A program made the position numbers and the translations under genes. From positions 17,273-81,272 of the IMG/VR virus record IMGVR_UViG_3300021963_005223: a stretch of 64,000 bases of DNA. One strand, given 5' to 3'. The stretch comes from a virus. This document shows positions 7,007-45,291 of the stretch, in pieces; position 1 is the stretch's first letter; every line of letters starts with the position of its first letter. The notes under the pieces were generated by a model, which saw only the letters and a list, made by a program, of their open reading frames with translations, was not told the origin of the DNA and did not search any database.

Positions 7007-7157
7007 GTTATTAAATGCTGAAATCGCACCTAATATAATTATATTAGAAGAACGTAAACTTCCTGAAGGTTGGAAAGAAGGAGATATGTTTAAAGTTATT
7101 ATTGGTGCGAATGGACAAGTTACACTAATCAAGTCAACGCAAGATGGTGTAATGTAA
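7005..7157 (+). CDS. Small protein with GWKEGD core (AbrB-fold-like), 50 aa
   Basis: The frame runs from ATG 7005 to TAA 7155-7157. The core LPEGWKEGDMFKVIIGANGQVTL parallels GWKEGDVLEWIDNKNGSWTL in the 561-740 protein, so the reading frame is coding rather than accidental. The ATG overlaps the -10 box of the strong promoter, so full-length protein requires read-through from the exonuclease gene. An internal in-frame ATG at 7086 has a strong site in front (GAAGGAGAT) and would give only 23 residues from the promoter transcript. Function unknown; probable small DNA-binding or antitoxin-like protein. Confidence 0.6.
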   Translation: MLLNAEIAPNIIILEERKLPEGWKEGDMFKVIIGANGQVTLIKSTQDGVM

Positions 7158-7159
7158 GA

Positions 7160-7502
7160 ATTGCTGTATGAAGCAATGAGAAAGGTGTTCTGGACGTGGG
7201 TTCGACTCCCACCACCTCCACCTGAACATATTCCGAACCGAGTTATCGGTAGCAAAGCGAAACGCTGAGTATGTTCAGGTGGGGGTGCCATGGTTTCGAC
7301 AGGGCAATGAGTAACAGAGTGGACAGCACGACACAGAGAGTCGTAAAAAGTAAAAAACGTAAACGCAAACGACGCACAGTTCGCATTAGCAGCCTAAACA
7401 CTGCTTAGGGTTTCGGTAGGTTTCCTCGTAACAGAATAACCTACCACGAATTAGTGAAGTCTTTGCTCATAATTGGCAACCGATATCCTTGATATCTTGT
7501 AC
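7160..7502 (+). ncRNA. ssrA: Circularly permuted two-piece tmRNA (ssrA)
   Basis: The acceptor piece comes first: T-arm GTGGG-ttcgact-CCCAC (7196-7212), then the acceptor 3' strand CACCTCC (7213-7219), discriminator A and CC at 7221-7222; the final A of CCA is not encoded. A removed loop (about 7223-7280) follows, with stem TGAACATA/TATGTTCA. The coding piece starts at GGGGGTG (7281-7287), pairing seven bases with CACCTCC, followed by the conserved GGTTTCGACAGGG. The tag ORF is 7365-7397: GCA resume codon, ANDAQFALAA, stop TAA. Just upstream GTCGTAAAAAGT resembles the E. coli segment before the tag, and downstream CTGCTTAG is also conserved. A hairpin GGTAGGTT/AACCTACC (7415-7445) follows. The 5' and 3' ends given are approximate. 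Confidence 0.93.
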
Positions 7503-16926: not shown

Positions 16927-17526
16927 TTAACCCATTTTTCTAAGTGAATCTGCCCAGATTGCATCTTTAGATGAACCCACAAATCTTTCAACTGGAAGCA
17001 ACATTGCAGTAGCCCAATCATTTGCAGGAATTTCCCTAAAGGGTGATCTTACATGATTTAACAGATAATGTTTAACGCATGGAATCGCTCCATTATAACG
17101 AGATACTCCATCTATAAGTGCCCAAGAATATTTGATTCTTGTCGTTTCGTTCATTTTATCGTTACTCTTAAAAATCATTAAACGATCTAGTAAACGAACA
17201 CGTAATTGGTATGGTAAATAATGCATATTTAAACCCAAGAATCCACCTTCTACTTTTCTAAACGGGAAAACTAGAGGGAACCTATCATAATACGGTAGAG
17301 TATCTTTTAGTTTTGGGTCATAAAAATACATATAAAGTTTCCCAGGAGTGATACTGGTCTTTAGTTGTGTCGTATCGCCCTGTAATACTTTAGGTGGTGT
17401 TATTCTCTGTTTGTTTAACAGTAGAACTTGTTGTTCAAACCAGCCACGAGACTTTTTAGCTGCAGTCTTGAGGTCGTATTGGTTTTTCTCAAATACGTCT
17501 TGTAATGTTGTTGGATTTTTAGCCAT
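16927..17526 (-). CDS. Conserved T4-like phage protein between gp4 and gp54, 199 aa
   Basis: The sequence is strongly patterned: TLQDVFEKNQYDLKTAAKKSRGWFEQQVLLLNKQRITP, then GKLYMYFYDPKLKDTLPYYDRFPLVFPF and GGFLGLNMHYLPYQLRVRLLDRLM, ending PVERFVGSSKDAIWADSLRKMG. I recognise this as a protein conserved in T4-like marine phages and usually placed next to gp4; it is often listed as structural. Function is not established. A CTAAATA box lies exactly five bases before its ATG. Confidence 0.8.
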   Translation of the reverse strand: MAKNPTTLQDVFEKNQYDLKTAAKKSRGWFEQQVLLLNKQRITPPKVLQGDTTQLKTSITPGKLYMYFYDPKLKDTLPYYDRFPLVFPFRKVEGGFLGLNMHYLPYQLRVRLLDRLMIFKSNDKMNETTRIKYSWALIDGVSRYNGAIPCVKHYLLNHVRSPFREIPANDWATAMLLPVERFVGSSKDAIWADSLRKMG

Positions 17527-31809: not shown

Positions 31810-34800
31810 ATGATCGATTTCAATACCGAACCATATAATGACGATTACGACGAGAACAGTAAATTCTATAGAATTTTGTTCCGTCCAAGTTTCGCTCTAC
31901 AGGCTCGTGAATTAACACAATTACAATCTATCCTTCAGAAACAAATCCAGCGTCATGGAGATAATATCTTCAAACAAGGTTCAATGGTTCTGCCTGGACA
32001 AATATCGATTGATACTAATGCACAATATGTTAAATTGCAGCCATTATATAATGGCGTAGCTGTAGAAACATTTTTATCTAATCTTAAAGATAAAGTTATT
32101 GTTGGTTCAAATAGCAGCCTGACAGCAGAAGTTATCAAAGTTCAAAGTGCTGAGCAAACTGAGCCATCAACAATTTATGTTCGTTATAAAAATTCTGGAA
32201 GCAACAATACAACTAAAGTATTTGCTGCAGGAGAAGTAATTACAACAGAAGATACTCAATATTCTTTCCAAGCTATAGCAGATACCCCAACTGGAATGGG
32301 TTCAATTGTTTCCATTGAACGTGGTGTTTATTACGTTAATGGTTTCTTTGTTCTAGTTGGCGCACATTCTATTATTCTTGACAAATATAGCAACACACCA
32401 TCATATCGTGTTGGATTGAATGTAGAAGAAAAAATTGTTACTCCTGAAGAAGATGCAACTTTATTGGATAATGCCCAAAATAGTTTCAACTATGCTGCTC
32501 CAGGTTCTCATCGTTATTATATCGATTTAACTCTAAAGAAAGTTTCTTTAGAGTCAGCTTCTGACGCCAACTTTATTGAATTGCTACGTGTTGAAAATGG
32601 TGTCAATAAAAAGATTACTACTAAGACAGAATATTCTGTTTTAGAACAAACACTGGCTCGTCGCACTTATGATGAGTCTGGTGATTATACTGTAAGAAAC
32701 TTCAATATTGATATTCGTGAACATCGCACAAATAATCGTGGCGCATGGATACAAAATACTGCATTCTTAATCGGCGACGTTGTCACTAATGCTGGTAAAA
32801 CATATGTAGCTAAAAATAGTGGAACTTCTGTTACAACTGCTCCAGTACATACTACTGGTACCGCATATGATGGTCCAGGATCTACTGGTATTCAATGGGA
32901 ATATACAACAACACCAGTTTACAATCGTGGCATCTACAAAAATGGTGATGAGTCTAAACTTGCTATCGGTTTAGAGCCAGGAAAAGCATATGTTCGTGGA
33001 TATGAGATTGAAAAGATCGCCACAGAATATGTTGCTATTAACAAATCTCGTGAATATTCTCAGGCAGATAATGCTTTTATTTCTGCAGAAATAGGTAATT
33101 ATGTTGTAGTCAACAATCTATGTAAGATTCCTCCAATCGGAACTAATGCTGTAGTTAATCTGAGAGATCAATTAACTGCAACACGTGGAACTGAAGCAGG
33201 ATCTATCATTGGTACTGCACGTGTTCGTGGTATAGAATGGGACAATGGATCAATTGGATCTACTACAGCATCATATAAGTTATTTTTGTATGATATCAAT
33301 ATGGCCAGTGGTAAACAGTTCTCTAGAAACGTTAAATCGTTTGGATTGACTTCAACAGGATTTACTGCTGATGTTAACCCAATCACTACACCATTAATTG
33401 GTTCTGTTACTGCTGCTGGAACAACTGTTACTGGTAATGGAACTTCTTTTTTAACAGATTTAATTGTTGGTGACTATATTTACGTTAACAACGCATCATA
33501 TAGAATTACTGCAATCGCTTCTCAAGTTTCATTAACAATATCTGCTTCTCTAACTGCAACAAACGCAGCATATAGTTTAGTCAAAACTAACGTGTTAGCA
33601 ACTAATCTAGAGAAGTCTTTATTCAGTTTACCATATAGCACAGTTCGTTCTTTAAGAAGTGCATTATCAACGAATGATACTTCTTACACAGTTTCAGCAT
33701 TATACAGCGAAACTGTAGCTTCAGGTAATATTAACTTGAATGCTGCAGCAGGAACTTTTGCTTCTGGTTCTGTCACTGGAAACTTTATTGTGACTAGAAA
33801 TGATAATGGTGATATTATTCCTATTAACAGTGTAACAGTAACAGGAAGTTCTGCCACTATTAACGTTGGCACATTATATAATGGTGTTACTTGTACTATT
33901 GTTGGAACATTAAACAAAACTGGTTCTAGTTCTACAGAGAAAACTAAAACACACGTTACTGGTGCGACTAAAACATTTACAACTTTAACAACAGTTTCTC
34001 CAACAACATTATCTTTAGGTAAAGCTGACTGCTGGAAGATTAACAGCGTTAAAATGGATTCTGGTTCTTTTGCATCCCCAACAGGTTCTTATACTATCGA
34101 TATTTCTGATCGTTATGAATTTGATAATGGTCAAAGATCAACCCATTATGATCTTGGTAGAATTGTATTAAAAGATACATACGCTCCACCATCTGCACCT
34201 ATACAAGTAACTTTTGAATATTTTACTCATTCAGTTGGAGATTATTGCAGCGTTAATTCATATCCTGCAACTATTTCATATTCAGAAATTCCAGCAGAAT
34301 TAAGAGATGGTTTAGACTTCCGTCCAAGAATTGATGACGATGGCATTAACTTCAGCACGGTAACTCAATTACCAAGACGTGGTTCTAACATAACTACAGA
34401 CTTTACTTATTATTTGTCCAGAAAAGAAAAAATTGCTGTTGACATAAATGGTAATTTCTTTAATATTTCTGGAACATCATCTATTAATCCAGGTGATGCT
34501 GAAGATTCTTCAACAGGAATGATTCTTTACAAACTAACTCTTTCTCCTTATACTTTTGATACTACAAGCAACAATATTAAAATTGAATCTGTTGATAATA
34601 GACGTTATACAATGCGCGACATCGGTAAATTAGAAAAGCGTATTGATAACTTAGAATATTACACTTCACTTTCGTTACTAGAACAACAAACTGAGTCTTT
34701 AAAAATAACAGACTCTACTGGTCTAGACAGAATGAAGAATGGATTTATAGTTGATAACTTTACAGGTCACGGTATCGGCGCAGCTGATTCTGTAGACTAT

Positions 34801-37800
34801 CGTTGTTCAGTTGATATGAACAAAGGTGAGCTACGCCCATTCTATACAATGAAAAACGTCAATTTAATTGAAAAGGCATCTACTAATGCTGCTCGTTCAG
34901 CAGCAAAATATTCACAATATGGAGATGTTATAACTCTTCCAATCTTAGAGAATGTTCCGTTAATTAAACAACAGTTTGCTTCTCGTTTAGAAAACATCAA
35001 TCCATTTGCAGTATTCACTTTCCTTGGTGATGTTAAACTAAATCCTCAAACTGATGACTGGTTTGAAACTGAACGTCGTCCAGATATTATCAATAATATA
35101 GAAGGTAATTTTACAACAATCAATACTCTTGCTGAAAAAGCTGGAGCATTGGGTACTGTTTGGAATGCTTGGCAAACTCAATGGACTGGTCAACAAGTTA
35201 GTGGAACATTTGGTTTTGCAAACGCAAATTCTGGTTCAGTTAATTTCGGTGGAGTATTTGGAACTGTTAGCGCAAACTTTGGTAGCAGAGGTGGTGGTGC
35301 ACGTCGTTGGGTTACGGCAGAACTAACAGCCACTCAAGTTGGTCAAACACGATCAGGTATCAAAACTGATATTGTAGCAAAAATTGATAAACAAATTGTT
35401 GCCGATCGTGTATTATCAACAGCTGTTATTCCATATATTCGTTCTAGAAATGTTTTAGTTCAAGTTCGTGGTTTAAAACCATTAACACGTTTCTACCCAT
35501 ATTTTGATGATGTAGATATGTCTGCGTATTGCACGCCAGCATCCAAAATTACTTATACATCAACTAGCGGAACATTTGATGCTACAACAAACGTAGGTGG
35601 TATCGCTACTGAAGAAGCACGACGCATTAATGGCGATTCTCAAGTTTGTTTGAATCGTGGTGATTATATTAGAGGTGTTACAAGTAATGCTACTGCTGTT
35701 GTAATTGGAACTGAAACGGATTATGACACTAATACTAAATCTTTATTTGTTGTAAACATAAAGGGAACATTCCAGAATAATGAACAAATTACTGGTTCTG
35801 TTTCTAATGCAGTTGGAGTTATTAACTCCATCACTGTAAATGCAACAGGTGGAAATCTTGTAACTAATAAGAGTGGCGATGTTAATCTACTATTCTTTAT
35901 TCCAAATACAGACTCAGTTCGTTTCCGCACTGGCTCACGTGAGTTTAAACTTGTAGATAGCTCTACTGCAAATGGCGCATTTACTTCTCGTGGTCGTGCT
36001 CAATATAGAGCAGAGGGTATCGTTGAAACTAAACAAGCAACTGTAAATGCAGTACGTAATGCTGAGTTGGTTCAGAACGTAGTCGAAGATAGCAGAACTA
36101 TTATTGAGACATCTTCACGTGTTCTATCAGACACAGGTTGGTATGACCCTCTTGCACAAACATTCTTGATCGACAACAAAGGTGGTGCATTTTTAACTAA
36201 GGTCGACATTTTCTTTGCAAGTAAAGATACTGCTATTCCTGTCACTTTGGAAATTCGTGAAGTTATAAACGGATATCCAGGTAAGCGTGTTTTACCATTC
36301 TCACGTGTAACTCTACGTCCAGAGCAAGTAAACATTTCAACTAACACAGTTGATTTAGATGGAGTAGCAACTCCTACATTTGATACTCCAACATCGTTTG
36401 TGTTTCAATCTCCTGTTTATGTTCAGGATGCATCTGAATATTGTATCGTTTTAATTTCAGATTCTAACAAATATAAATGTTGGATTTCTCAGTTGGGTGA
36501 TACTGTCCCAGGAACAAGCAGAACTATTTCTGAACAACCATATCTTGGATCGCTATTTAAATCTCAGAATGCTTCAACATGGACAGCAGATCAAACTCAA
36601 GATTTAATGTTTACAATATACAAAGCTAAATTTGATATATCTGGAGTTGGAACAGTTCAGTTTGTTAATGATGTTCTTCCTTATACCACATTAGATACAG
36701 ATCCATTCCAAATGACTGCTGGATCTAATATTATTCGTGTATGGCAAAATAATCATGGTTTAACAGATGGTTCTAAAGTAACTATCTCTGGTGTTTCTGG
36801 AACATTAAATGGTATACCTGCTGCAGAATTAAATGGAACATGGTTTATAAGTAATATTGACGTTGATTCTTATACAATTACTACAACAACCACAGCAACT
36901 AAGACTGGCTATTATGGTGGAACTACAGTAAGAGCTACTGGACAGGTTCAATATGATTCAGTTATGCCAGTTGCTCAAGTTCAAAATTTCTCAGAAACTT
37001 CTACAACATATTCATTGAAAACTACATCTGGAAGATCAGTTGATGGTTCTGAAACTCCATATGTTCAGGATATTTCTTTCGGTGCTTGTTTAGTTAATGA
37101 GAATAACTATTTTTATAGCCCACGTTTAGTTTCTTCTGAAATAAACGAAAATACATTTACTGGTGGCAATAAATCAGTGACTTTTGCTATAAACTTATCT
37201 TCAACTAATAATTCTTTATCGCCAGTTTTAGATACACAGCGTATGAGTTTGATTGCTATTTCCAATAGAATTAACTCTCCTTCTCATACCAATACCAATG
37301 TAACTCCAACTGACTATACTCAGTTATTTACTGGCGCAACGGGAGCATTTAGCTTCTCTGGCTCTACAATAACTTCCACTGTTTCTGCAGTTAGAAATTT
37401 AATGCAGACTATCGGTATTGGTCAATTTATTAGAGTAGAGGGAACTACAACTGCTGGAAACGCTGGAACTTATCTTGTAACTGATGTCATCGACAATGGA
37501 AGTAATTGCACGATTACTGTTTCTGGAGTAACATTTACTTCTGAAAATGCGGTTACTGGAACTATAGTTTCTACAGTTAACCTGTTTACAGACGAGATTG
37601 CTCCAGTAGGATCTTCAACGATTTCCAAGTATGTTTCCAAGACTATTAAATTGGCTCTTCCATCTACATTCATGAAGATCAGGTATTCAGCCAATATTCC
37701 AAACCAGTCTGACGTTTTAGTTTATTATAAGACTATTTTGGGGTCTTCGGGTAATATAGATAAGACTAAATATACTTTAGCAACCCCTATTTCAACACCA

Positions 37801-37959
37801 ACTAAAGTTGAAAATGGAAATGAAAGATTCTATGATGTGGACTACTCTTTAAATAATTTGAATCCATTCGATACTGTTCAGGTCAAGTTAGTTATGAAGT
37901 CTACTAATACATCTGCAGTTCCAAGAATTAAAGATTTAAGAATTATTGCATGCGCATAA
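31810..37959 (+). CDS. Giant DUF4815-type virion protein, 2049 aa
   Basis: The N-terminus FNTEPYNDDYDENSKFYRILFRPSFALQARELTQLQSILQKQIQRHGDNIFKQGSMVLPG is the DUF4815 pattern of large structural proteins in marine T4-like phages. The protein continues with Ig-like beta segments (about residues 520-720), a central part with PLAQTFLIDNKGGAFLTKVDIFFASKD (near 1447) and a C-terminal beta-rich region ending RIKDLRIIACA. It is probably a baseplate-fibre connector in the position of gp9-gp10. Largest gene in the window. GAAGAGTAAAAG precedes the ATG. Confidence 0.8.
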   Translation: MIDFNTEPYNDDYDENSKFYRILFRPSFALQARELTQLQSILQKQIQRHGDNIFKQGSMVLPGQISIDTNAQYVKLQPLYNGVAVETFLSNLKDKVIVGSNSSLTAEVIKVQSAEQTEPSTIYVRYKNSGSNNTTKVFAAGEVITTEDTQYSFQAIADTPTGMGSIVSIERGVYYVNGFFVLVGAHSIILDKYSNTPSYRVGLNVEEKIVTPEEDATLLDNAQNSFNYAAPGSHRYYIDLTLKKVSLESASDANFIELLRVENGVNKKITTKTEYSVLEQTLARRTYDESGDYTVRNFNIDIREHRTNNRGAWIQNTAFLIGDVVTNAGKTYVAKNSGTSVTTAPVHTTGTAYDGPGSTGIQWEYTTTPVYNRGIYKNGDESKLAIGLEPGKAYVRGYEIEKIATEYVAINKSREYSQADNAFISAEIGNYVVVNNLCKIPPIGTNAVVNLRDQLTATRGTEAGSIIGTARVRGIEWDNGSIGSTTASYKLFLYDINMASGKQFSRNVKSFGLTSTGFTADVNPITTPLIGSVTAAGTTVTGNGTSFLTDLIVGDYIYVNNASYRITAIASQVSLTISASLTATNAAYSLVKTNVLATNLEKSLFSLPYSTVRSLRSALSTNDTSYTVSALYSETVASGNINLNAAAGTFASGSVTGNFIVTRNDNGDIIPINSVTVTGSSATINVGTLYNGVTCTIVGTLNKTGSSSTEKTKTHVTGATKTFTTLTTVSPTTLSLGKADCWKINSVKMDSGSFASPTGSYTIDISDRYEFDNGQRSTHYDLGRIVLKDTYAPPSAPIQVTFEYFTHSVGDYCSVNSYPATISYSEIPAELRDGLDFRPRIDDDGINFSTVTQLPRRGSNITTDFTYYLSRKEKIAVDINGNFFNISGTSSINPGDAEDSSTGMILYKLTLSPYTFDTTSNNIKIESVDNRRYTMRDIGKLEKRIDNLEYYTSLSLLEQQTESLKITDSTGLDRMKNGFIVDNFTGHGIGAADSVDYRCSVDMNKGELRPFYTMKNVNLIEKASTNAARSAAKYSQYGDVITLPILENVPLIKQQFASRLENINPFAVFTFLGDVKLNPQTDDWFETERRPDIINNIEGNFTTINTLAEKAGALGTVWNAWQTQWTGQQVSGTFGFANANSGSVNFGGVFGTVSANFGSRGGGARRWVTAELTATQVGQTRSGIKTDIVAKIDKQIVADRVLSTAVIPYIRSRNVLVQVRGLKPLTRFYPYFDDVDMSAYCTPASKITYTSTSGTFDATTNVGGIATEEARRINGDSQVCLNRGDYIRGVTSNATAVVIGTETDYDTNTKSLFVVNIKGTFQNNEQITGSVSNAVGVINSITVNATGGNLVTNKSGDVNLLFFIPNTDSVRFRTGSREFKLVDSSTANGAFTSRGRAQYRAEGIVETKQATVNAVRNAELVQNVVEDSRTIIETSSRVLSDTGWYDPLAQTFLIDNKGGAFLTKVDIFFASKDTAIPVTLEIREVINGYPGKRVLPFSRVTLRPEQVNISTNTVDLDGVATPTFDTPTSFVFQSPVYVQDASEYCIVLISDSNKYKCWISQLGDTVPGTSRTISEQPYLGSLFKSQNASTWTADQTQDLMFTIYKAKFDISGVGTVQFVNDVLPYTTLDTDPFQMTAGSNIIRVWQNNHGLTDGSKVTISGVSGTLNGIPAAELNGTWFISNIDVDSYTITTTTTATKTGYYGGTTVRATGQVQYDSVMPVAQVQNFSETSTTYSLKTTSGRSVDGSETPYVQDISFGACLVNENNYFYSPRLVSSEINENTFTGGNKSVTFAINLSSTNNSLSPVLDTQRMSLIAISNRINSPSHTNTNVTPTDYTQLFTGATGAFSFSGSTITSTVSAVRNLMQTIGIGQFIRVEGTTTAGNAGTYLVTDVIDNGSNCTITVSGVTFTSENAVTGTIVSTVNLFTDEIAPVGSSTISKYVSKTIKLALPSTFMKIRYSANIPNQSDVLVYYKTILGSSGNIDKTKYTLATPISTPTKVENGNERFYDVDYSLNNLNPFDTVQVKLVMKSTNTSAVPRIKDLRIIACA

Positions 37960-38204: not shown

Positions 38205-39377
38205 ATGGCGACACTCGTTTTAAGACAAACTAAGGGACTACCCCTTACCAACGCTGAAGTTGATGGGAACTTTACCAACTTAAATGATGAGTTGGCGACC
38301 AAACTTCCTTCCACCTCATACACTGCAGCTGACGTTTTAACAAAAATTAAGACTGTAGATGGAACAGGTTCTGGTTTAGACGCAGACCTTTTAGATGGTC
38401 TAAGCACTAGTTCAACCTTACCAGGAATTGTGGATAAAAGTTCTGTTGTGACTCGAGACACATCTGGTAATACTGCCCTAAACCAATTATCGCTTACTGG
38501 TGCATTATCTGGTACAACTGCTACATTTAGTGGTGGTGTTTCAGTTGGCTCAATCACTATAGCAGGTGGATCCATTCCAGTTTCTGCTGGTGGTACAGGA
38601 GCTACAACTGCTCAGAATGCAAGAATAAATTTAGGTTTGGTTTTAGATACAGACGTTCAAGCGTATAATTCAAATTTACAAGCATTATCTGCTGCTTCAC
38701 CAGCAGCAGATAGATTACCATATTATACTGGTGCTTCCACTGCAGCTTTAGCAACTTTCACTTCTTTCGGAAGAACTTTAGTTGCTTCTACTGACGTTTT
38801 TGCTGCAAGAACTAATCTTGGTTTAGTTTTGGGTACTGACGTACAACCTTTCTCAGCTGAACTTTCTTCTGTAGCTGGTTTGTCGACTACTGGTATAATT
38901 ATCAGAACTGGTGCTGGAACCAAAGCAACAAGAACTATTACAGGAACAGCTGGAGAAGTTGTTGTAAGTAATGGTGATGGTGTAGCTGGAAACCCAACAT
39001 TAAGTCTTGGTACAGGTATTGCAAAATTATCTGCAAATAACACCTTCGCTGGAACTAACACTTTCCAAGTAATTTATGCAACTGAAGTTAATACAACCTC
39101 AGACGAAAGACTGAAAGAGAACATCCAAACGCTAAATAATGCTGTGGATATTGTTAATAGTTTGCGTGGCGTAGCCTATATTAAGGGTGGCAAAGCAGAA
39201 CTTGGTTTGATAGCTCAAGAAGTTGAACAGGTTATCCCTCAAGTTGTTGGGACAGATATGTCTGGTTATAAAACCATCGCCTATGGAAATATGGTTAGTA
39301 TATTGGTCGAAGCTATCAAAGAACAACAAAAAACAATTAGAGAATTAACTACTCGTTTAGAGAAACTGGAGAAATAA
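38205..39377 (+). CDS. Tail fibre with S74 intramolecular chaperone
   Basis: 390 aa. N-terminus TLVLRQTKGLPLTNAEVDGNFTNLNDE is the fibre attachment pattern of marine phages; the middle is Gly/Thr-rich beta repeats (VSAGGTGATTAQNARINLGL). The C-terminus [29 protein letters not shown]...LGLIAQEVEQVIPQVV is the peptidase S74 chaperone domain, which trims itself off after trimerisation (Ser of SDERLKEN). It is a short fibre; the receptor is unknown. Followed two bases later by the Cys-rich gene. Confidence 0.9.
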   Translation: MATLVLRQTKGLPLTNAEVDGNFTNLNDELATKLPSTSYTAADVLTKIKTVDGTGSGLDADLLDGLSTSSTLPGIVDKSSVVTRDTSGNTALNQLSLTGALSGTTATFSGGVSVGSITIAGGSIPVSAGGTGATTAQNARINLGLVLDTDVQAYNSNLQALSAASPAADRLPYYTGASTAALATFTSFGRTLVASTDVFAARTNLGLVLGTDVQPFSAELSSVAGLSTTGIIIRTGAGTKATRTITGTAGEVVVSNGDGVAGNPTLSLGTGIAKLSANNTFAGTNTFQVIYATEVNTTSDERLKENIQTLNNAVDIVNSLRGVAYIKGGKAELGLIAQEVEQVIPQVVGTDMSGYKTIAYGNMVSILVEAIKEQQKTIRELTTRLEKLEK

Positions 39378-39378
39378 T

Positions 39379-39759
39379 ATGGCAATTCATGCAGCAACTG
39401 GATTTAAAAGATCTGATGGAACAGATGTAGTAAACCTGTTCTGGAACTACTATGATGCAGGTAACAGAAACTATACTGAAGGTAATGGTAACTGCGGATG
39501 GAACTGTGCATGTAATAACTGTAATTCCAACTGTAACTGTAACTGCGGTAACTGCGACGCTGGAGATATTTCTATTAACGTAGCTACTACCGATAGACGT
39601 ATTAACATGTTCCGCAACACTGCTTATGCAGACGGTATCCGTCACGACAATCAAGATAACACTTTAGGTGGTTTCCAATGGTTCCGCACAAACTGTAACT
39701 GTAACTGTGCATGTAACTGTAATTGCGCTTGCGACTGTGCTTGTGCTTGTGCATGTTAA
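39379..39759 (+). CDS. Cysteine-alternating protein, 126 aa (possible radical-SAM substrate)
   Basis: The product has no signal peptide. Residues 1-36 are an ordinary leader-like part (AIHAATGFKRSDGTDVVNLF). Two cysteine blocks follow: residues 39-59 with Cys at 39, 43, 45, 48, 52, 54, 56 and 59, and residues 106-126 with Cys at every second position (106, 108, ... 126), mostly alternating with Asn then Ala, ending in Cys126. Nineteen of 126 residues are Cys. The DNA is a near-microsatellite of AACTGT. It is followed by an unknown gene and a radical-SAM/SPASM enzyme. The alternating pattern could be a thioether-linked RiPP-type core, a metal-binding array or a disulphide-linked beta-helix on the virion. 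I know of no assigned family. Confidence 0.8.
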   Translation: MAIHAATGFKRSDGTDVVNLFWNYYDAGNRNYTEGNGNCGWNCACNNCNSNCNCNCGNCDAGDISINVATTDRRINMFRNTAYADGIRHDNQDNTLGGFQWFRTNCNCNCACNCNCACDCACACAC

Positions 39760-39773
39760 TGGAGACAGAATAA

Positions 39774-40703
39774 ATGTTTAAAATTATTAAAACTCAAATT
39801 ACAGCATCTTTAAAAGAAGGTTCTGAGATTGGTATAAATGCCAATTATAGAACAACAATGGGCTATAATTCTGAAGACAAAACAATTTCAGTAAAAGTAG
39901 AAAAATTAAACAGACCAGATTTGACTCGTGAAGAAAATTTGGAAGTAACATACACAGAAGTAGCTTCTAGAATATTTGGTTTAGAAGATTTTCCACAAAA
40001 TACTGATAACATAACTTGGTTCACTGAGTATGATGTTGAAGCAAATAAAATTTCAGATCCGATTGAGATTTGGGATTGGGTTGCTACATTACAACAAAAG
40101 ACTCCTCCTGCTCCAAATGTTCCATATACTATCGGTTCTTTACAAACAGACTTCGCAGCTCACTTTACGCCAAAAATACTTCCATTATTTCATTTAGGTT
40201 CTTTCAATAAATCAGTTGAAAATTTTGAAGGTTCATTGTTACAATTTTACGTAACAAATGCAGACCAAACTACATTGGCTCCACATGATACAATTTTAAC
40301 AGATCCAAATCTAGAAGTTAAAACTTCATTAGAAAAATCTCAGTGGAGTAGTATCAATATTTTACCTATGCTTTCATACAATTTACTAGACGCTAATGGA
40401 GATGTAGTTGAAGTTGAACAGACTAAGATGGTAACACCTCGTCACCAAAAAGTAACTTTACCTAAAGCTGATGAATATTCTGTTAGAATTAACTTCACTA
40501 AACCTGCATTTAAAAATATTTCCAATACATATAATGTTTCAGTGGTTAATGGCGGAATTAATAAAAATAGGATTGTAATTTCAGAAGGATCTTCTGTTGT
40601 TCTAGTTAATGCACGTGGACTAAATTCTGGAGACTTCGTTAAAGTTAAGCTAAATATTGGAAAGTATAATAGTTTCGGTGAATTCTGGATTAATATTCAG
40701 TAA
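39774..40703 (+). CDS. Hypothetical protein in the Cys-rich/radical-SAM island, 309 aa
   Basis: ATG 39774 lies 14 bp after the Cys-rich gene, behind GGAGACAGAATAA. It is beta-rich with no signal peptide and no membrane segment: FKIIKTQITASLKEGSEIGINANYRT, ASRIFGLEDFPQNTDNITWFTEYD, a Pro-rich linker (QKTPPAPNVPYTIG), and a C-terminal Ig-like part (VSVVNGGINKNRIVISEGSSVVLVNARG). It resembles a virion or carrier protein more than an enzyme. I recognise no family. A hairpin follows it, so it may share a transcript with the Cys-rich gene. Confidence 0.75.
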   Translation: MFKIIKTQITASLKEGSEIGINANYRTTMGYNSEDKTISVKVEKLNRPDLTREENLEVTYTEVASRIFGLEDFPQNTDNITWFTEYDVEANKISDPIEIWDWVATLQQKTPPAPNVPYTIGSLQTDFAAHFTPKILPLFHLGSFNKSVENFEGSLLQFYVTNADQTTLAPHDTILTDPNLEVKTSLEKSQWSSINILPMLSYNLLDANGDVVEVEQTKMVTPRHQKVTLPKADEYSVRINFTKPAFKNISNTYNVSVVNGGINKNRIVISEGSSVVLVNARGLNSGDFVKVKLNIGKYNSFGEFWINIQ

Positions 40704-40723
40704 ATTTGAACTAATAATTTTGA

Positions 40724-40755
40724 AATAAATACTCGATATCTTGTCGAGTATTTTA
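40724..40755 (+). promoter_or_regulatory. Late-type box overlapping a terminator-like hairpin
   Basis: AATAAATA (40724-40731) runs into the hairpin AAATACTCGA (40727-40736), loop TATCTTG, TCGAGTATTT (40744-40753), a perfect ten-pair stem followed by TAAATAA. The hairpin can end the upstream transcript; the box could start the radical-SAM gene's transcript, with the hairpin partly in its leader. Confidence 0.6.
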
Positions 40756-40773
40756 AATAATTTAAAGGTGAAT

Positions 40774-42249
40774 ATGAGTAAATATAGATTAATTCTACAG
40801 GGTTCTAATGATGTAAAAGAAGTTTTGGTTTATGATCCAATAACTTCTGAAATGGTTTGGGAAGAATCTGGGGAAAGACCATCCTTGCAGCATTTGGGTC
40901 AAGATATCGAATATAAAGTTACAGCATCAAAACAGTGGAAACCATTTAAGGTTACCAATCCACACGACCCAGATCTGCATGGTCGTAAATCCAAAAAGCC
41001 AACAACATTAAAAATTACCATGGGTCTTAAGTGCAATTTTAAGTGCACTTATTGTAACCAAGCTCATCAGCCACACGATCCAGTTGGTGGTCCAGAAGAT
41101 GCGGATGATTTAATCCAAAAAATCAAAACAAACTTTGAACTTGGAACTTATGACCCAGTAAGAATCGAATACTGGGGTGGAGAACCATTTGTTTATTGGA
41201 AAACTTTAAAACCACTATCTGAGAAATTGCGTAAAGTGTATCCAAAAGCACAGTTTACTATTGTTACCAATGGTTCTATGTTAGATCGAGAAAAAGTCGA
41301 CTGGCTAAACCAGATGGGATTCTCAGTAGGTATGTCTCATGATGGTCCATTGCATGCTCAAAATCGTGGACCAGATCCATTGGATGATCCAAAGATGCGT
41401 TTCGGTATCGCTTACGCATTAAAAACTATGGGTCAAATGCGTTTTTCTTTTAACGCAGTTTTAACAAGAGAAAATGTTTCTTTAGCTGCAGTAAGAAACT
41501 TTATTCTTGATAAAATTAACCAAAGACATCCAGATTACCCTGATCAACCTGGTATTGATCAGCGAGAAATTCATGTTACCACTGAAGAATTGCTGTTACC
41601 GTATGACGATGATGGAATGAAACATTCATTGGTTACTCCAGATGAAAAGAAGATGATTCTTCATAACCTTTTCTGGGAAACAATTAATCAAAGAAATGAG
41701 TTTAGTTGGACTGTGCATAGTAAAATTAAAAACTTTTTTGACAGTTTGATTAATCAAAGACCTGCTGAGGCTCTTGGTCAAAAATGCGGTATGGATAGAG
41801 AAGACAATATTGCGATTGACATGAAAGGTAATGTAACCACTTGCCAAAATACTTCTTCTTTGACTAAACACCATATTGGTAACATTGAAGATTTTGATAA
41901 TATTCGTTTAACTACTTCATACCACTGGAGTACTAGAAGTGAGTGTCCAAGTTGCCCAGTAGTTCAATTATGTCAAGGTGCTTGTTTATTCTTAGAAGAC
42001 AAGTATTGGGAACAAGCGTGTGAAAACTTGTTCTATTATAACTTGGCGATGCTGGCTTCTTCTCTGTTTATACTTACAGGAGGTCTTGTACTAGTAGAAG
42101 TACAAGGAGAAAAGATAAGAAACGAAGGAATCACTTCGATACCAGTTATTGATATTAATTTTGTCAAATCTGATGGTAAAGAAACTTCCTGGAAAGTTCG
42201 TAAACCAATCGGTATTCCAGTTGTAACAGTTCCAGTTGGCTTGCAGTAA
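40774..42249 (+). CDS. Radical SAM/SPASM peptide-modifying enzyme
   Basis: 491 aa from ATG 40774 (AAAGGTGAAT upstream); an upstream in-frame ATG lies in the hairpin. Residues 81-100 contain the iron-sulphur motif C87-x3-C91-x2-C94 (MGLKCNFKCTYCNQA). SAM-binding GGEPF follows (YWGGEPFVYWKTL). The C-terminal part has the SPASM arrangement: QKCGMD, DMKGNVTTCQN, HIGNIEDF, CPSCPVVQLCQGACLF and WEQACEN, giving seven cysteines for auxiliary clusters. The last 70 residues (after FYYN) include a hydrophobic helix and a strand domain that are unusual. Such enzymes install crosslinks on Cys-rich peptides or oxidise protein Cys/Ser. The 126-aa Cys protein nearby is a natural candidate substrate; this is inference. 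Confidence 0.9.
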   Translation: MSKYRLILQGSNDVKEVLVYDPITSEMVWEESGERPSLQHLGQDIEYKVTASKQWKPFKVTNPHDPDLHGRKSKKPTTLKITMGLKCNFKCTYCNQAHQPHDPVGGPEDADDLIQKIKTNFELGTYDPVRIEYWGGEPFVYWKTLKPLSEKLRKVYPKAQFTIVTNGSMLDREKVDWLNQMGFSVGMSHDGPLHAQNRGPDPLDDPKMRFGIAYALKTMGQMRFSFNAVLTRENVSLAAVRNFILDKINQRHPDYPDQPGIDQREIHVTTEELLLPYDDDGMKHSLVTPDEKKMILHNLFWETINQRNEFSWTVHSKIKNFFDSLINQRPAEALGQKCGMDREDNIAIDMKGNVTTCQNTSSLTKHHIGNIEDFDNIRLTTSYHWSTRSECPSCPVVQLCQGACLFLEDKYWEQACENLFYYNLAMLASSLFILTGGLVLVEVQGEKIRNEGITSIPVIDINFVKSDGKETSWKVRKPIGIPVVTVPVGLQ

Positions 42250-42250
42250 T

Positions 42251-42589
42251 ATGTCTTTTTTGAAGTGCAAAATCTGGCTGGTTGAGCAATATCCAAGATA
42301 TGGGTCTAATTATAATTTGTTCCCAATATCTGATATTATAGATTATGATTCTGATAATACATTTTATGACTATAAAGAAGATAAATCCCAGCATTTTATA
42401 AATATGATGGTTCCAGAATTTGAAATTTATGCAACAGAAGAACAGATTGAAATTTTAAATAAATATACTGAAGAGATTATCAGTAAAAAGATTCCGATAC
42501 TTAGAAATGTGCAAAAGGGTGATGTGGAGTATTGGATGATAGATACTACATTTTTAGACTATCATCTTAAAACAAAAAATATCCAATAG
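42251..42589 (+). CDS. Hypothetical protein, 112 aa
   Basis: ATG 42251 begins one base after the radical-SAM stop and has AGTAAT before it; the gene lies in the same direction. The product is acidic with many Tyr/Ile residues (CKIWLVEQYPRYGSNYNLF, IIDYDSDNTFYDY) and a helix EEQIEILNKYTEEIISK. It has no CxxC motif and does not look like a classical RiPP recognition element, although a small alpha/beta partner of the radical-SAM enzyme is possible. No family recognised. Confidence 0.7.
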   Translation: MSFLKCKIWLVEQYPRYGSNYNLFPISDIIDYDSDNTFYDYKEDKSQHFINMMVPEFEIYATEEQIEILNKYTEEIISKKIPILRNVQKGDVEYWMIDTTFLDYHLKTKNIQ

Positions 42590-42598
42590 GAGAAAAAA

Positions 42599-43546
42599 AT
42601 GAATGCAAAACATGTTAAATGGGTCATTGCACATGAACCTATCGGCTTGTTTCTTAAAGTAGCGGATCGTTTCGCTACAGAAGTAAACGAGAAGACTGGT
42701 GGAATGTTCAATATTGAAGTTTTATCATTGTCAGATTATTCTGCAAAATATAACGATGGCAAAAAGATCACTAAAAATGAGTTAATGACTTTAGTTGATT
42801 CTGGTGCTATTGAAATGAGCCACATCTATACTACTTGGTTAGCTGATTATAATAAAGATCTACATGCTTTAGATCTACCTTTCTTATTCCGTGACCACGA
42901 TCACGCTGATGCAGTTCTAGAAGGTGAAATTGGTACTGAGTTGTTAGCTGGTGTATCTAAGAATTCTAATATTCACGCTATGTCTTTCACTTACTCTGGT
43001 GGTTATCGTGTTGTTCCAGCTAACTTCCGTGCTGATACTGTAGAAGCATGGAGAGGTCAAGCTGTTCGCACTTCACGTTCTCCAGTAGCTGTTGAGACAT
43101 TTAAGTTACTAGGTGCTGAGCCAAAAGAGCACATCGCTCTAGAAGAAATGAATGAATATGCAGATAAAGGTGAAATTGCTGCTGGTGAATCAACTTACGT
43201 TCGCATTTTCCCACTAGATCAGTATAAATCTTTTAAAGTTGTTAATGACACTGCTCATAGCTTGTTCTTAACTTCTATTATTGTTAACAAAGACTTTATG
43301 GCTCAGTTTGACGAAGAAACTCGAGAGATTCTAGCTACTGCTGCATTTAATGCTGCTCGTGTAGAGCGTCGTGAATCTGTAGCTGACATTCCTAACATCT
43401 TGGCTGAATGTCAAGAAAAAGGTGTTGAAGTTGTTCGTATGTCTACTGAAGAACAGAAGAAGTTCCAAGAAGTTACTTCTGCTGTTTATGAAAAGTTTGC
43501 AGACTATTTCACTCCAGGATTAGTGCAGAAAATTAAGTTACAATAA
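42599..43546 (+). CDS. DctP-family (TRAP transporter) solute-binding protein without signal peptide
   Basis: 315 aa after AGGAGAAAAAA. The family pattern is unmistakable: FATEVNEKTGGMFNIEVL, ALDLPFLFRDHDHADAVLEGEIGTELL, GYRVVPANFR, AWRGQAVRTSRSPVAVETFKLLGAEP, EMNEYADKGEIAAGES and a C-terminal helix pair. The conserved Arg of the carboxylate pocket may be within RTSRSP. Normal DctP proteins are periplasmic and carry a signal peptide; this starts MNAKHVKWVIAHEP and directly enters the first strand. No TRAP membrane subunits are near. It may have been captured for a cytoplasmic or virion role. Codon use looks like its neighbours. Confidence 0.88.
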   Translation: MNAKHVKWVIAHEPIGLFLKVADRFATEVNEKTGGMFNIEVLSLSDYSAKYNDGKKITKNELMTLVDSGAIEMSHIYTTWLADYNKDLHALDLPFLFRDHDHADAVLEGEIGTELLAGVSKNSNIHAMSFTYSGGYRVVPANFRADTVEAWRGQAVRTSRSPVAVETFKLLGAEPKEHIALEEMNEYADKGEIAAGESTYVRIFPLDQYKSFKVVNDTAHSLFLTSIIVNKDFMAQFDEETREILATAAFNAARVERRESVADIPNILAECQEKGVEVVRMSTEEQKKFQEVTSAVYEKFADYFTPGLVQKIKLQ

Positions 43547-43563
43547 GCGTTTTGACAAATGAT

Positions 43564-43581
43564 GGGGAGCTTCGGCTCCCC
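43564..43581 (+). terminator. Terminator-like hairpin
   Basis: GGGGAGC-TTCG-GCTCCCC: seven perfect pairs with a TTCG loop, almost the same stem as the 13058-13083 terminator. It is followed by AAAATAATTATTCC, not a clean T-run, so termination efficiency is uncertain. Confidence 0.6.
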
Positions 43582-43612
43582 AAAATAATTATTCCTTTTA
43601 ATCAATTTTACA

Positions 43613-44665
43613 ATGACTATGAATAAAGAATGTTTATATTATAATTGCTATAATGTTCCAGAAGTAATACAAGCTGGAGATAAAAGTATTGAACCTTATC
43701 TATCACCAGATTATTCAGATAAAGTTTTCCAGTTTTATAGAAAATATAAAATGGATTTGACTAATGTAGTATGTGATAGAATGGATATCCTTCCACATTA
43801 TATTAACATAAAAAAGAATCAATTTCCACTACCAAAAATTGAGCCAGATTTTAATATGTCTTTTGCTGAGTGCGTTGAAAAACGAGCAAAAGAAATTTTG
43901 GCACTCAATAAACCAATAACGGTAGTTTGGAGCGGTGGTATTGATAGTACACTTGTAATATTTTCACTGCTTCAATTTTGCAATGACCCATCACAAATTA
44001 CTGTTTATGGAACTTATAACTCTATTGTAGAGTCTGGTGATGTATTTGAAAAATATATCCTGCCAAGGGGTGTCAAATATCAGTTTGCAGTATCATCTAG
44101 AAAATACTTTAAAGATGATACACAAATCTATATCTCTGGTTTTATGGGTAATCAATTATTTGGACCAGTTGATGATTTTTCATATTCAAAAGCTACATTG
44201 TTTCATCACCATCTTAGAGGTAATGGTGATATTGAAGATTCTTACGAAACTGTGTTGACTGAAGAGATGCACGAGTTTTTATTACCTGCACTTAAAGCCA
44301 GTCCAAAGAAAATAGAAACTGTTAGAGATTTACGCTGGTTTGGTATTTTTATGTTAGATTGGCACCAGTCATATTATGATATTTTAATCAAAACAAAAAA
44401 TTATGATAAAGTTTATCATTTTTTTGATGATGCTGATATGCAAAAATATTCTATGACAACAAAAGAGCCATACACAAAAGTAAAGGGAAACCCTCTGACC
44501 CATCGCTGGGTCATGAGGGAATTAATTGAAGAGTGGGGGAAGTGCTCTCACTATGCTTGGAACAAACCAAAGAGTATATCAAACTTGGCCAATAGAGCTG
44601 CTGACTGGTATTTTATAATGCCAGATCATAGTTTGATTACTCCAAACAATATTAAATTTAATTAG
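43613..44665 (+). CDS. PP-loop ATP pyrophosphatase, asparagine-synthase-like
   Basis: 350 aa. The PP-loop SGGIDST is at about residues 104-110 (ITVVWSGGIDSTLVIFSLL), the ATP-binding signature of asparagine synthase and related adenylating ligases. The region after it (FMGNQLFGPVDDF, HQSYYDILIK) suggests a single-domain synthetase without an N-terminal glutaminase. It could make amide or other acyl bonds on a small molecule or peptide. No good ribosome site precedes ATG 43613, or ATG 43619. It closes the plus part of the Cys-rich/radical-SAM/DctP island and meets the next gene tail to tail with 4-nt overlap. Confidence 0.8.
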   Translation: MTMNKECLYYNCYNVPEVIQAGDKSIEPYLSPDYSDKVFQFYRKYKMDLTNVVCDRMDILPHYINIKKNQFPLPKIEPDFNMSFAECVEKRAKEILALNKPITVVWSGGIDSTLVIFSLLQFCNDPSQITVYGTYNSIVESGDVFEKYILPRGVKYQFAVSSRKYFKDDTQIYISGFMGNQLFGPVDDFSYSKATLFHHHLRGNGDIEDSYETVLTEEMHEFLLPALKASPKKIETVRDLRWFGIFMLDWHQSYYDILIKTKNYDKVYHFFDDADMQKYSMTTKEPYTKVKGNPLTHRWVMRELIEEWGKCSHYAWNKPKSISNLANRAADWYFIMPDHSLITPNNIKFN

Positions 44666-45291
44666 TAATTAACAAACCCAACATAAACATTTAAGAATAC
44701 TTGTGCTTGGTCTGATAAATTAGTTTCAACGTAGCGTTGCAAATATCCTGGAGTGACAACAATTTCACCAACACGAGCACGAATTCCATAGTTTGTTGCA
44801 ACTAAACCATTAGAAACCAGTTGGCGAATTGTTTGGACTCCACCTCTTGTATCAGCGAAATATGTGTTTGGTGGGAACTGTCCTGTATGCAAAACGAATG
44901 TTAAAATTAGAGGAACGTGTTCATAGCAATGTAATGGTACATGCTCTTGTGGCTGTTGGAAAAATACGCTAGAACCAAGGATCTCGGGCAATCTCTTTAG
45001 ATCTTGATTTTCTTTATCTTCAAATTCTTCTAATTGCTTGCAAGTACTATATACGAACCCTCTAAATTTTTCTACTAGTGGGTTGTCAATACCCATAATA
45101 TTTACATTCCCAGTTTCATTATTATGCTGGTTGTAAATAGCTAAAAATTCATTGAGTTCTTCTTCATTTAAATTAAAAGAAAAACAGCGCAAAGGTGTTG
45201 GGAAAAGTGATTTTTCGAATGTTTTTGTCACTTCAATAGAAGTTTCTTGACTTGTAGAAACTTCAGTCTGGGGTTGTTGATTTTCTTGCAT
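44662..45291 (-). CDS. Divergent protein, possibly a degraded 2OG-oxygenase-like fold, 209 aa
   Basis: Minus strand, ATG 45291 after GGAGATAAA. N-terminal 25 residues are Gln/Thr/Ser-rich; then FEKSLFPTPLRCFSFNLNEEELNEFLAIYNQHNN and a C-terminal part HVPLHCYEHVPLILTFVLHTGQFPPNTYFAD ... VVTPGYLQRYVETNLSDQAQVFLNVYVGF. The C-terminal pattern resembles the strands of the phage 2OG-Fe(II) oxygenase family (his-containing strand, 'PGYLQ.YV..N.SDQ.RV.LN'), but the usual H-x-D and distal His are not visible, so it would be inactive as an oxygenase. An alternative is a structural protein. A perfect late box TATAAATA lies upstream. Confidence 0.65.
   Translation of the reverse strand: MQENQQPQTEVSTSQETSIEVTKTFEKSLFPTPLRCFSFNLNEEELNEFLAIYNQHNNETGNVNIMGIDNPLVEKFRGFVYSTCKQLEEFEDKENQDLKRLPEILGSSVFFQQPQEHVPLHCYEHVPLILTFVLHTGQFPPNTYFADTRGGVQTIRQLVSNGLVATNYGIRARVGEIVVTPGYLQRYVETNLSDQAQVFLNVYVGFVNY

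Follow-up and report, generated by a model that had tools for sequence, protein, structure and literature searches.

The window, a stretch of 64,000 nucleotides (positions 17,273 to 81,272) from the 81,272-base IMG/VR virus record IMGVR_UViG_3300021963_005223, encodes behind a tail-fibre gene a small protein with an alternating cysteine tract and, two genes on, a radical S-adenosylmethionine (SAM) enzyme with a SPASM domain. Genes for such enzymes and genes for tracts of alternating asparagine and cysteine (NC tracts) are paired, and this pairing is real and widespread among phages and prophages. On balance, the enzyme is probably a maturase of cysteine tracts at fibre tips, with thioether formation as the most likely, not certain, chemistry. 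The narrower proposition, that the tract protein is the substrate of the enzyme, appears very probable.

The pairing was displayed from both the tract side and the enzyme side. A scan of viral contigs for the pattern NCNCxCNC gave 120 stretches; where the pattern was in frame in an open reading frame (ORF), the enzyme was present in 44 of 69 cases, and otherwise in 1 of 51 (Fisher p 1e-13). ORFs throughout were taken from mechanical calling, and loci related to one another do not represent independent events. Under a stricter tract definition, 53 ORFs had 3.5 kb or more of downstream sequence, and the enzyme was present for 49 of them. The four others (loci carry L-numbers given in this analysis) were either close to weaker radical SAM genes (L057, L157) or short or doubtful (L126, L140). 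A cysteine gene lacking its radical SAM partner would have told against the link proposed in a preliminary description of this DNA, and every clear NC-tract gene with sufficient sequence around it had one.

Loci first recognised by their tract supplied the sequences for the enzyme profile, while later viral and genome loci were picked by the enzyme alone. With the tract defined as three or more alternating cysteines and two or more NC in an ORF on the same strand, and at least 3.5 kb required upstream, 80 of 99 non-redundant loci from the viral and genome collections carried it. Control counts were 4 of 99 for a tract on the opposite strand and 0 to 4 of 99 for an equivalent pattern built on any residue other than cysteine. 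The residue preceding cysteine was mostly asparagine (427), then alanine (99) and aspartate (42), every other residue accounting for fewer than 10. Five loci scored as negative (L165, L184, L220, L246, L256) hold a tract that was cut by the contig end or had fewer NC. The cysteine protein and the enzyme also occurred together in other viral contigs, and the link first drawn for this phage alone extends far beyond it.

Some loci were set apart. NCNC ORFs near other, weaker radical SAM genes (L057, L072, L085, L095, L157) may belong to separate cysteine-rich peptide systems. Radical SAM genes of Campylobacter phages (27 to 29% identity, core only) stood in another context, with no tract in the stretch read, and were not counted. 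Among the loci that do have the pair, Rhodobacterales genomes (L279, L283, L288, L289, L291, L293, L299, L300, L303) had a gap of 635 bases between tract and enzyme genes and a shared, recurring gene order, and in L289 the genes upstream include fibre-like and lysin-like ones; these loci would represent a conserved prophage or related element.

The five to six genes of the block and their motifs were found where the preliminary description had placed them, and are given below with the flanking genes.

38205..39377, plus strand: tail-fibre gene with C-terminal Peptidase_S74 chaperone (Pfam Peptidase_S74 3.7e-13; PHROG tail fibre)
39379..39759, plus strand: cysteine-tract protein, 126 aa with 19 Cys, the proposed substrate (inner tract NCGWNCACNNCNSNCNCNCGNC, C-terminal tract NCNCNCACNCNCACDCACACAC)
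39774..40703, plus strand: 309-aa protein, its last ~60 aa matching family c2 (hhalign probability 92.8%, E 3.9e-7, 60 columns)
40774..42249, plus strand: radical SAM/SPASM enzyme, 491 aa, the proposed tract maturase (Pfam Radical_SAM 2e-10; phrog_1802 7e-63; SPASM model)
42251..42589, plus strand: 112-aa protein of family c5, kept behind the radical SAM gene in T4-like phages and given no part in the proposed tract reaction
42599..43546, plus strand: DctP-like solute-binding protein (Pfam DctP 5e-40; no signal peptide by eye)
43613..44665, plus strand: PP-loop ATPase with motif WSGGIDST (weak Asn-synthase, LarE, QueC and nitrile-synthetase matches)
44662..45291, minus strand: 2-oxoglutarate (2OG)-Fe(II)-oxygenase-like protein, directly after the block (phrog_81 1e-6)

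The composition of the cysteine protein was as described earlier, its last 11 cysteines standing at alternate residues up to the C-terminus. In 17 homologues, 15 cysteine columns were invariant, and 14 of these 15 used both TGT and TGC. Codon variation at invariant cysteines indicates that the residue, not the DNA, is conserved and under selection. The alternating cysteines are not a product of chance. The protein had no match among INPHARED phages and no family match in the Pfam or PHROG searches.

Relatives showed on which kind of protein such tracts are borne. Many of 65 diverse carriers matched PHROG tail-fibre, tail-collar or collagen-like minor-tail families, and others matched Pfam collagen, Hint, CBM_5_12 or Peptidase_S74. 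Of 103 non-redundant carriers, 78 had the tract no more than 10 aa from the C-terminus. Most carriers were fibre proteins of 100 to 600 aa rather than the short precursors of ribosomally synthesized and post-translationally modified peptides (RiPPs). The virion assignment proposed earlier for the window protein is therefore supported, as relatives bear the tract on tail-fibre-type proteins, and its presence in the virion is a prediction. The description of the protein as a RiPP core behind a leader was only partly apt: the tract is there, on whole fibre proteins in relatives and at times in mid-chain.

Residues 1 to 267 of the window fibre shared 52 to 54% identity with fibres of sister phages that have NC tails as their C-termini (L054, L103, L127, L187, L218), while the window fibre ends in the Peptidase_S74 chaperone in place of an NC tail, and the cysteine protein is the next gene. 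In the simplest reading, the cysteine protein would replace the tract-bearing fibre tip and be a virion component, a placement suggested by where its gene lies and by relatives in which the tract is fused to the fibre.

Further tract architectures were seen. Small tract proteins occurred in tandem, three in L191:5596-6508 and two in L305:5183-5647, and all of them had an NC/AC tract at or close to their end. A phage protein of 2,081 aa (L110:3914-10159), on a contig that ends soon after, carried NCNCACNCACDC in mid-chain, just ahead of a stretch resembling, by eye, the 2,049-aa protein of the window (31810-37959).

Carriers in at least ten loci placed the tract against a Hint-like domain. JWF and 2-1, two isolated Achromobacter phages, encode an enzyme related to that of the window (39% and 35% identity, respectively) two genes behind a tail-fibre protein with NCNCDCNCNCSC or NCNCDCNCSC directly ahead of such a domain. 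The Hint-like N-terminal motif started at, or a few residues from, the last cysteine of the tract in JWF, 2-1, L198, L214, L231, L249-L252, L255 and L281; the JWF match was above the Pfam cut-off and several others were below it. This layout corresponded to four changes on the radical SAM tree, at least three of them on well-supported branches. From known Hint chemistry, autocleavage would make the tract the C-terminus. Evidence seems evenly poised for the broader reading of a widespread virion modification, in which radical SAM enzymes cross-link cysteine tracts of fibre tips, some with Hint autocleavage making the modified tract terminal, and produce a rigid or reactive tip for host contact.

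The sequence of the enzyme carried the features expected of a SPASM maturase. Its start was assigned to the ATG at 40774, behind AAAGGTG (the mechanical ORF began at TTG 40741). Both motifs reported for it earlier, C87-x3-C91-x2-C94 and a full SPASM cysteine set, are present. C87, C91 and C94 were invariant in 27 sequences, with Pfam Radical_SAM above its cut-off. C338-x13-G-x4-C357, C391-x2-C394-x5-C400-x3-C404 and C416, all invariant, correspond to the seven-cysteine SPASM motif CX9-15GX4C-gap-CX2CX5CX3C-gap-C (PMC6231123), and the enzyme passed the cut-off of the SPASM domain model TIGR04085. Its AlphaFold2 (AF2) model was confident (predicted local distance difference test, pLDDT, 89.3; predicted template modelling score 0.89). 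The nearest solved folds were CteB (5WHY, E 9e-14; 5WGG), then the anaerobic sulfatase-maturating enzyme (anSME), and the nearest sequence profiles were TigE (8VPO), anSME and CteB. The best NCBIfam match was the PapB family NF047865 (69.2 bits against a cut-off of 340), and anSME (TIGR03942) reached 61.7 bits against 349.45; scoring below the cut-off of every maturase family among the NCBIfam matches listed, the enzyme was assigned to none.

The closeness of anSME by profile and by fold raises the alternative that the enzyme acts on the tract without cross-linking it, converting cysteine to formylglycine as anSME does, or by epimerisation or desulfurisation. The JWF enzyme is indeed annotated as an anaerobic sulfatase-maturating enzyme, but the anSME score of the window enzyme was far under the cut-off and the sulfatase motif C-x-P/A-x-R is absent from the tract. 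The auxiliary cluster I (Aux I) ligands also differ: they are Cys255, Cys261, Cys276 and Cys330 in anSME, and the site is open in CteB (PMC6231123). The window family has no cysteine at the Cys261 position, hence no set of four cysteine ligands, and its Aux I site is predicted to be open as in CteB; a non-cysteine ligand, as in PqqE, is conceivable. The missing Cys261 ligand and the predicted CteB-like open site favour a thioether over formylglycine, short of proof, and the alternative without cross-linking is considered unlikely, though not negligible. Cross-linking of the tract is plausible, and CteB/PapB-like thioether links as its chemistry have about an even chance.

The mechanism proposed here is that the radical SAM/SPASM enzyme would be a dedicated maturase modifying the (Asn/Ala/Asp-Cys)n tract of a tail-fibre-tip protein. 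In the window this tract is borne by the separate 126-aa protein encoded right after the fibre, and in sister phages by the fibre's own C-terminus. Cysteine sulfurs would be joined to carbons of the neighbouring Asn, Ala or Asp in a row of thioethers of sactionine or ranthionine type, which would give a rigid, redox-stable tip with a presumed role in host contact. The two-way pairing, the fibre carriers, the C-terminal position of the tract, the Hint layout, the CteB fold, the SPASM cysteines and the synonymous cysteine codons all argue for a maturase.

Alternatively, the tract could stay unmodified, binding metals or forming disulfides at the fibre tip, with another role for the radical SAM enzyme in the locus. 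Alternating cysteines would bind soft metals, and modification of the tract is a prediction; the near-obligate two-way pairing, and the absence of tracts where the enzyme is missing, are left unexplained by an unmodified tract, which was given only a slim likelihood.

Other observations weigh against the maturase reading itself. About a fifth of the enzyme loci were tract-negative by the rule, and anSME, an oxidase of cysteine, was almost as near to the enzyme as CteB. The ~70 N-terminal residues of the enzyme formed three strands in the AF2 model, with no assignment to a RiPP recognition element, and the AF2 model of the cysteine protein (pLDDT 42) showed no usable fold. Tract modification, virion location and expression are likewise predictions made from the genes.

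Compared with known systems, the window enzyme most resembled the ranthipeptide and sactipeptide maturases CteB, PapB and AlbA, with which it shares the CX3CX2C and SPASM motifs, CteB being nearest in fold and PapB the best NCBIfam match. Unlike these, it fell under the family cut-offs, and in place of a short leader-core peptide it would act on a tail-fibre-type protein with alternating Asn-Cys. anSME acts on a cysteine of a large protein, and its profile matched the window enzyme over the full length; besides the differences given above, no sulfatase was encoded nearby. QhpD, the maturase of quinohemoprotein amine dehydrogenase, is a SPASM enzyme making cysteine thioethers on a protein subunit. 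Its NCBIfam model matched the window enzyme (7.8e-13) below cut-off, and QhpD differs in having a cellular, not a virion, role and an unrelated substrate. The His-Xaa-Ser system HxsB/HxsC, TIGR04463 (rSAM_vs_C_rich) and the Cys-every-fifth system CefB are similar, by their NCBIfam names, in setting a protein with a low-complexity tract beside a dedicated radical SAM enzyme, but they involve other tracts, other enzyme families (scores far under cut-offs) and no tail fibres.

The match to phrog_1802 (radical SAM domain-containing) shows that the enzyme family is catalogued; that entry carries no function or substrate, and its connection with fibre tracts is drawn here for the first time. No description of the tract and radical SAM pairing was found among titles and abstracts of the open-access papers searched, a scope that leaves absence unproven. 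The pairing suggests that these viruses make a previously undescribed chemical change to the cysteine-rich end of a protein that contacts the host. If so, an oxygen-sensitive radical enzyme would finish part of the phage host-recognition apparatus in the host cytoplasm, which would constitute a new kind of virion maturation and add structural virion proteins as a substrate class of SPASM enzymes. Such enzymes would also be a possible source of catalysts for stapling Cys-Asn repeats at a selected end of a protein. The unannotated family phrog_1802 would then have a function open to test, and candidate substrates can be picked out directly with the short motif NCNCxCNC.

A distant clade of the enzyme was found in Bacteriovoracaceae and in one proteobacterial metagenome-assembled genome (L292), in chromosomal surroundings. 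PqqD-like neighbours were encoded only at distant bacterial loci, above the Pfam cut-off in L302:9326-9658 and just below it in L292:9348-9647. L292:9777-9965 encodes a 62-aa peptide ending in GACACACGGPCY, the sole short-peptide carrier seen. L292 and L302 are a possible RiPP-like chromosomal counterpart, and these loci suggest that the phage enzyme may descend from a RiPP maturase for CxC cores or have a common ancestor with one.

The preliminary description had also joined the DctP-like protein and the PP-loop ATPase to the cysteine protein and the enzyme in one system. As individual genes, both held up: the solute-binding protein lacks an export signal by eye, and the ATPase has the PP-loop motif of Asn-synthase-like proteins, with no Pfam family matched. 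In a single pathway, DctP would deliver a small ligand, with the PP-loop ATPase activating or amidating the tract together with the radical SAM enzyme. Many T4-like phages had the gene order from radical SAM through c5 and DctP to PP-loop, among them a second group with a radical SAM enzyme only ~38% identical to that of the window. DctP and PP-loop genes were nevertheless adjacent without radical SAM or tract elsewhere (e.g., L347, L379, L396-L399), and most radical SAM and tract loci outside T4-like phages had neither gene. Among DctP-bearing loci with enough upstream sequence, 26 had both radical SAM and tract, 2 radical SAM without a tract by the rule, none a tract alone, and 13 neither (p 6e-9); the fibres of both rule-negative loci end in FINCRNCNC, in fact NC tails too. 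These counts and the stand-alone pairs mark radical SAM and tract as one unit, and DctP and PP-loop as another. The single pathway was dropped as leading reading and is quite improbable; by gene content, DctP and PP-loop behave as a conserved but separable neighbouring module.

Between the two T4-like groups (window against L103, L127, L159, L187, L217, L218, L221 and L222), DctP was 64 to 85% identical and the radical SAM enzyme only 36 to 41%, which points to recent exchange or strong constraint. A DctP homologue of 46% identity with an apparent signal peptide was encoded in a Bacteriovoracaceae genome, three genes from a relative of the radical SAM enzyme (L301:3039-4046). A strong hairpin, GGGGAGCTTCGGCTCCCC, directly behind the window DctP gene (43563-43582) indicates that DctP may end a transcription unit.

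Other recurrent neighbours were counted over 176 loci. Family c2 (~285 aa) was found in 91 loci, its last ~60 columns being common to the 309-aa protein of the window, which is possibly a substrate-presenting protein or a fibre part. Family c3 (~227 aa; 81 loci) comprised 2OG-Fe(II) oxygenases (PF13759), and the family of the minus-strand oxygenase of the window (c20) aligned with it.

Late expression, also proposed earlier, found no support in T4-type promoters: the window has 3 occurrences of TATAAATA where 7.7 would be expected, with no enrichment and no occurrence ahead of the cysteine gene. ARAGORN predicted a transfer-messenger RNA (tmRNA) gene at 7131-7488 of the window (plus strand; marked tmRNA*, tag peptide ANDAQFALAA), which may hint at the host lineage.

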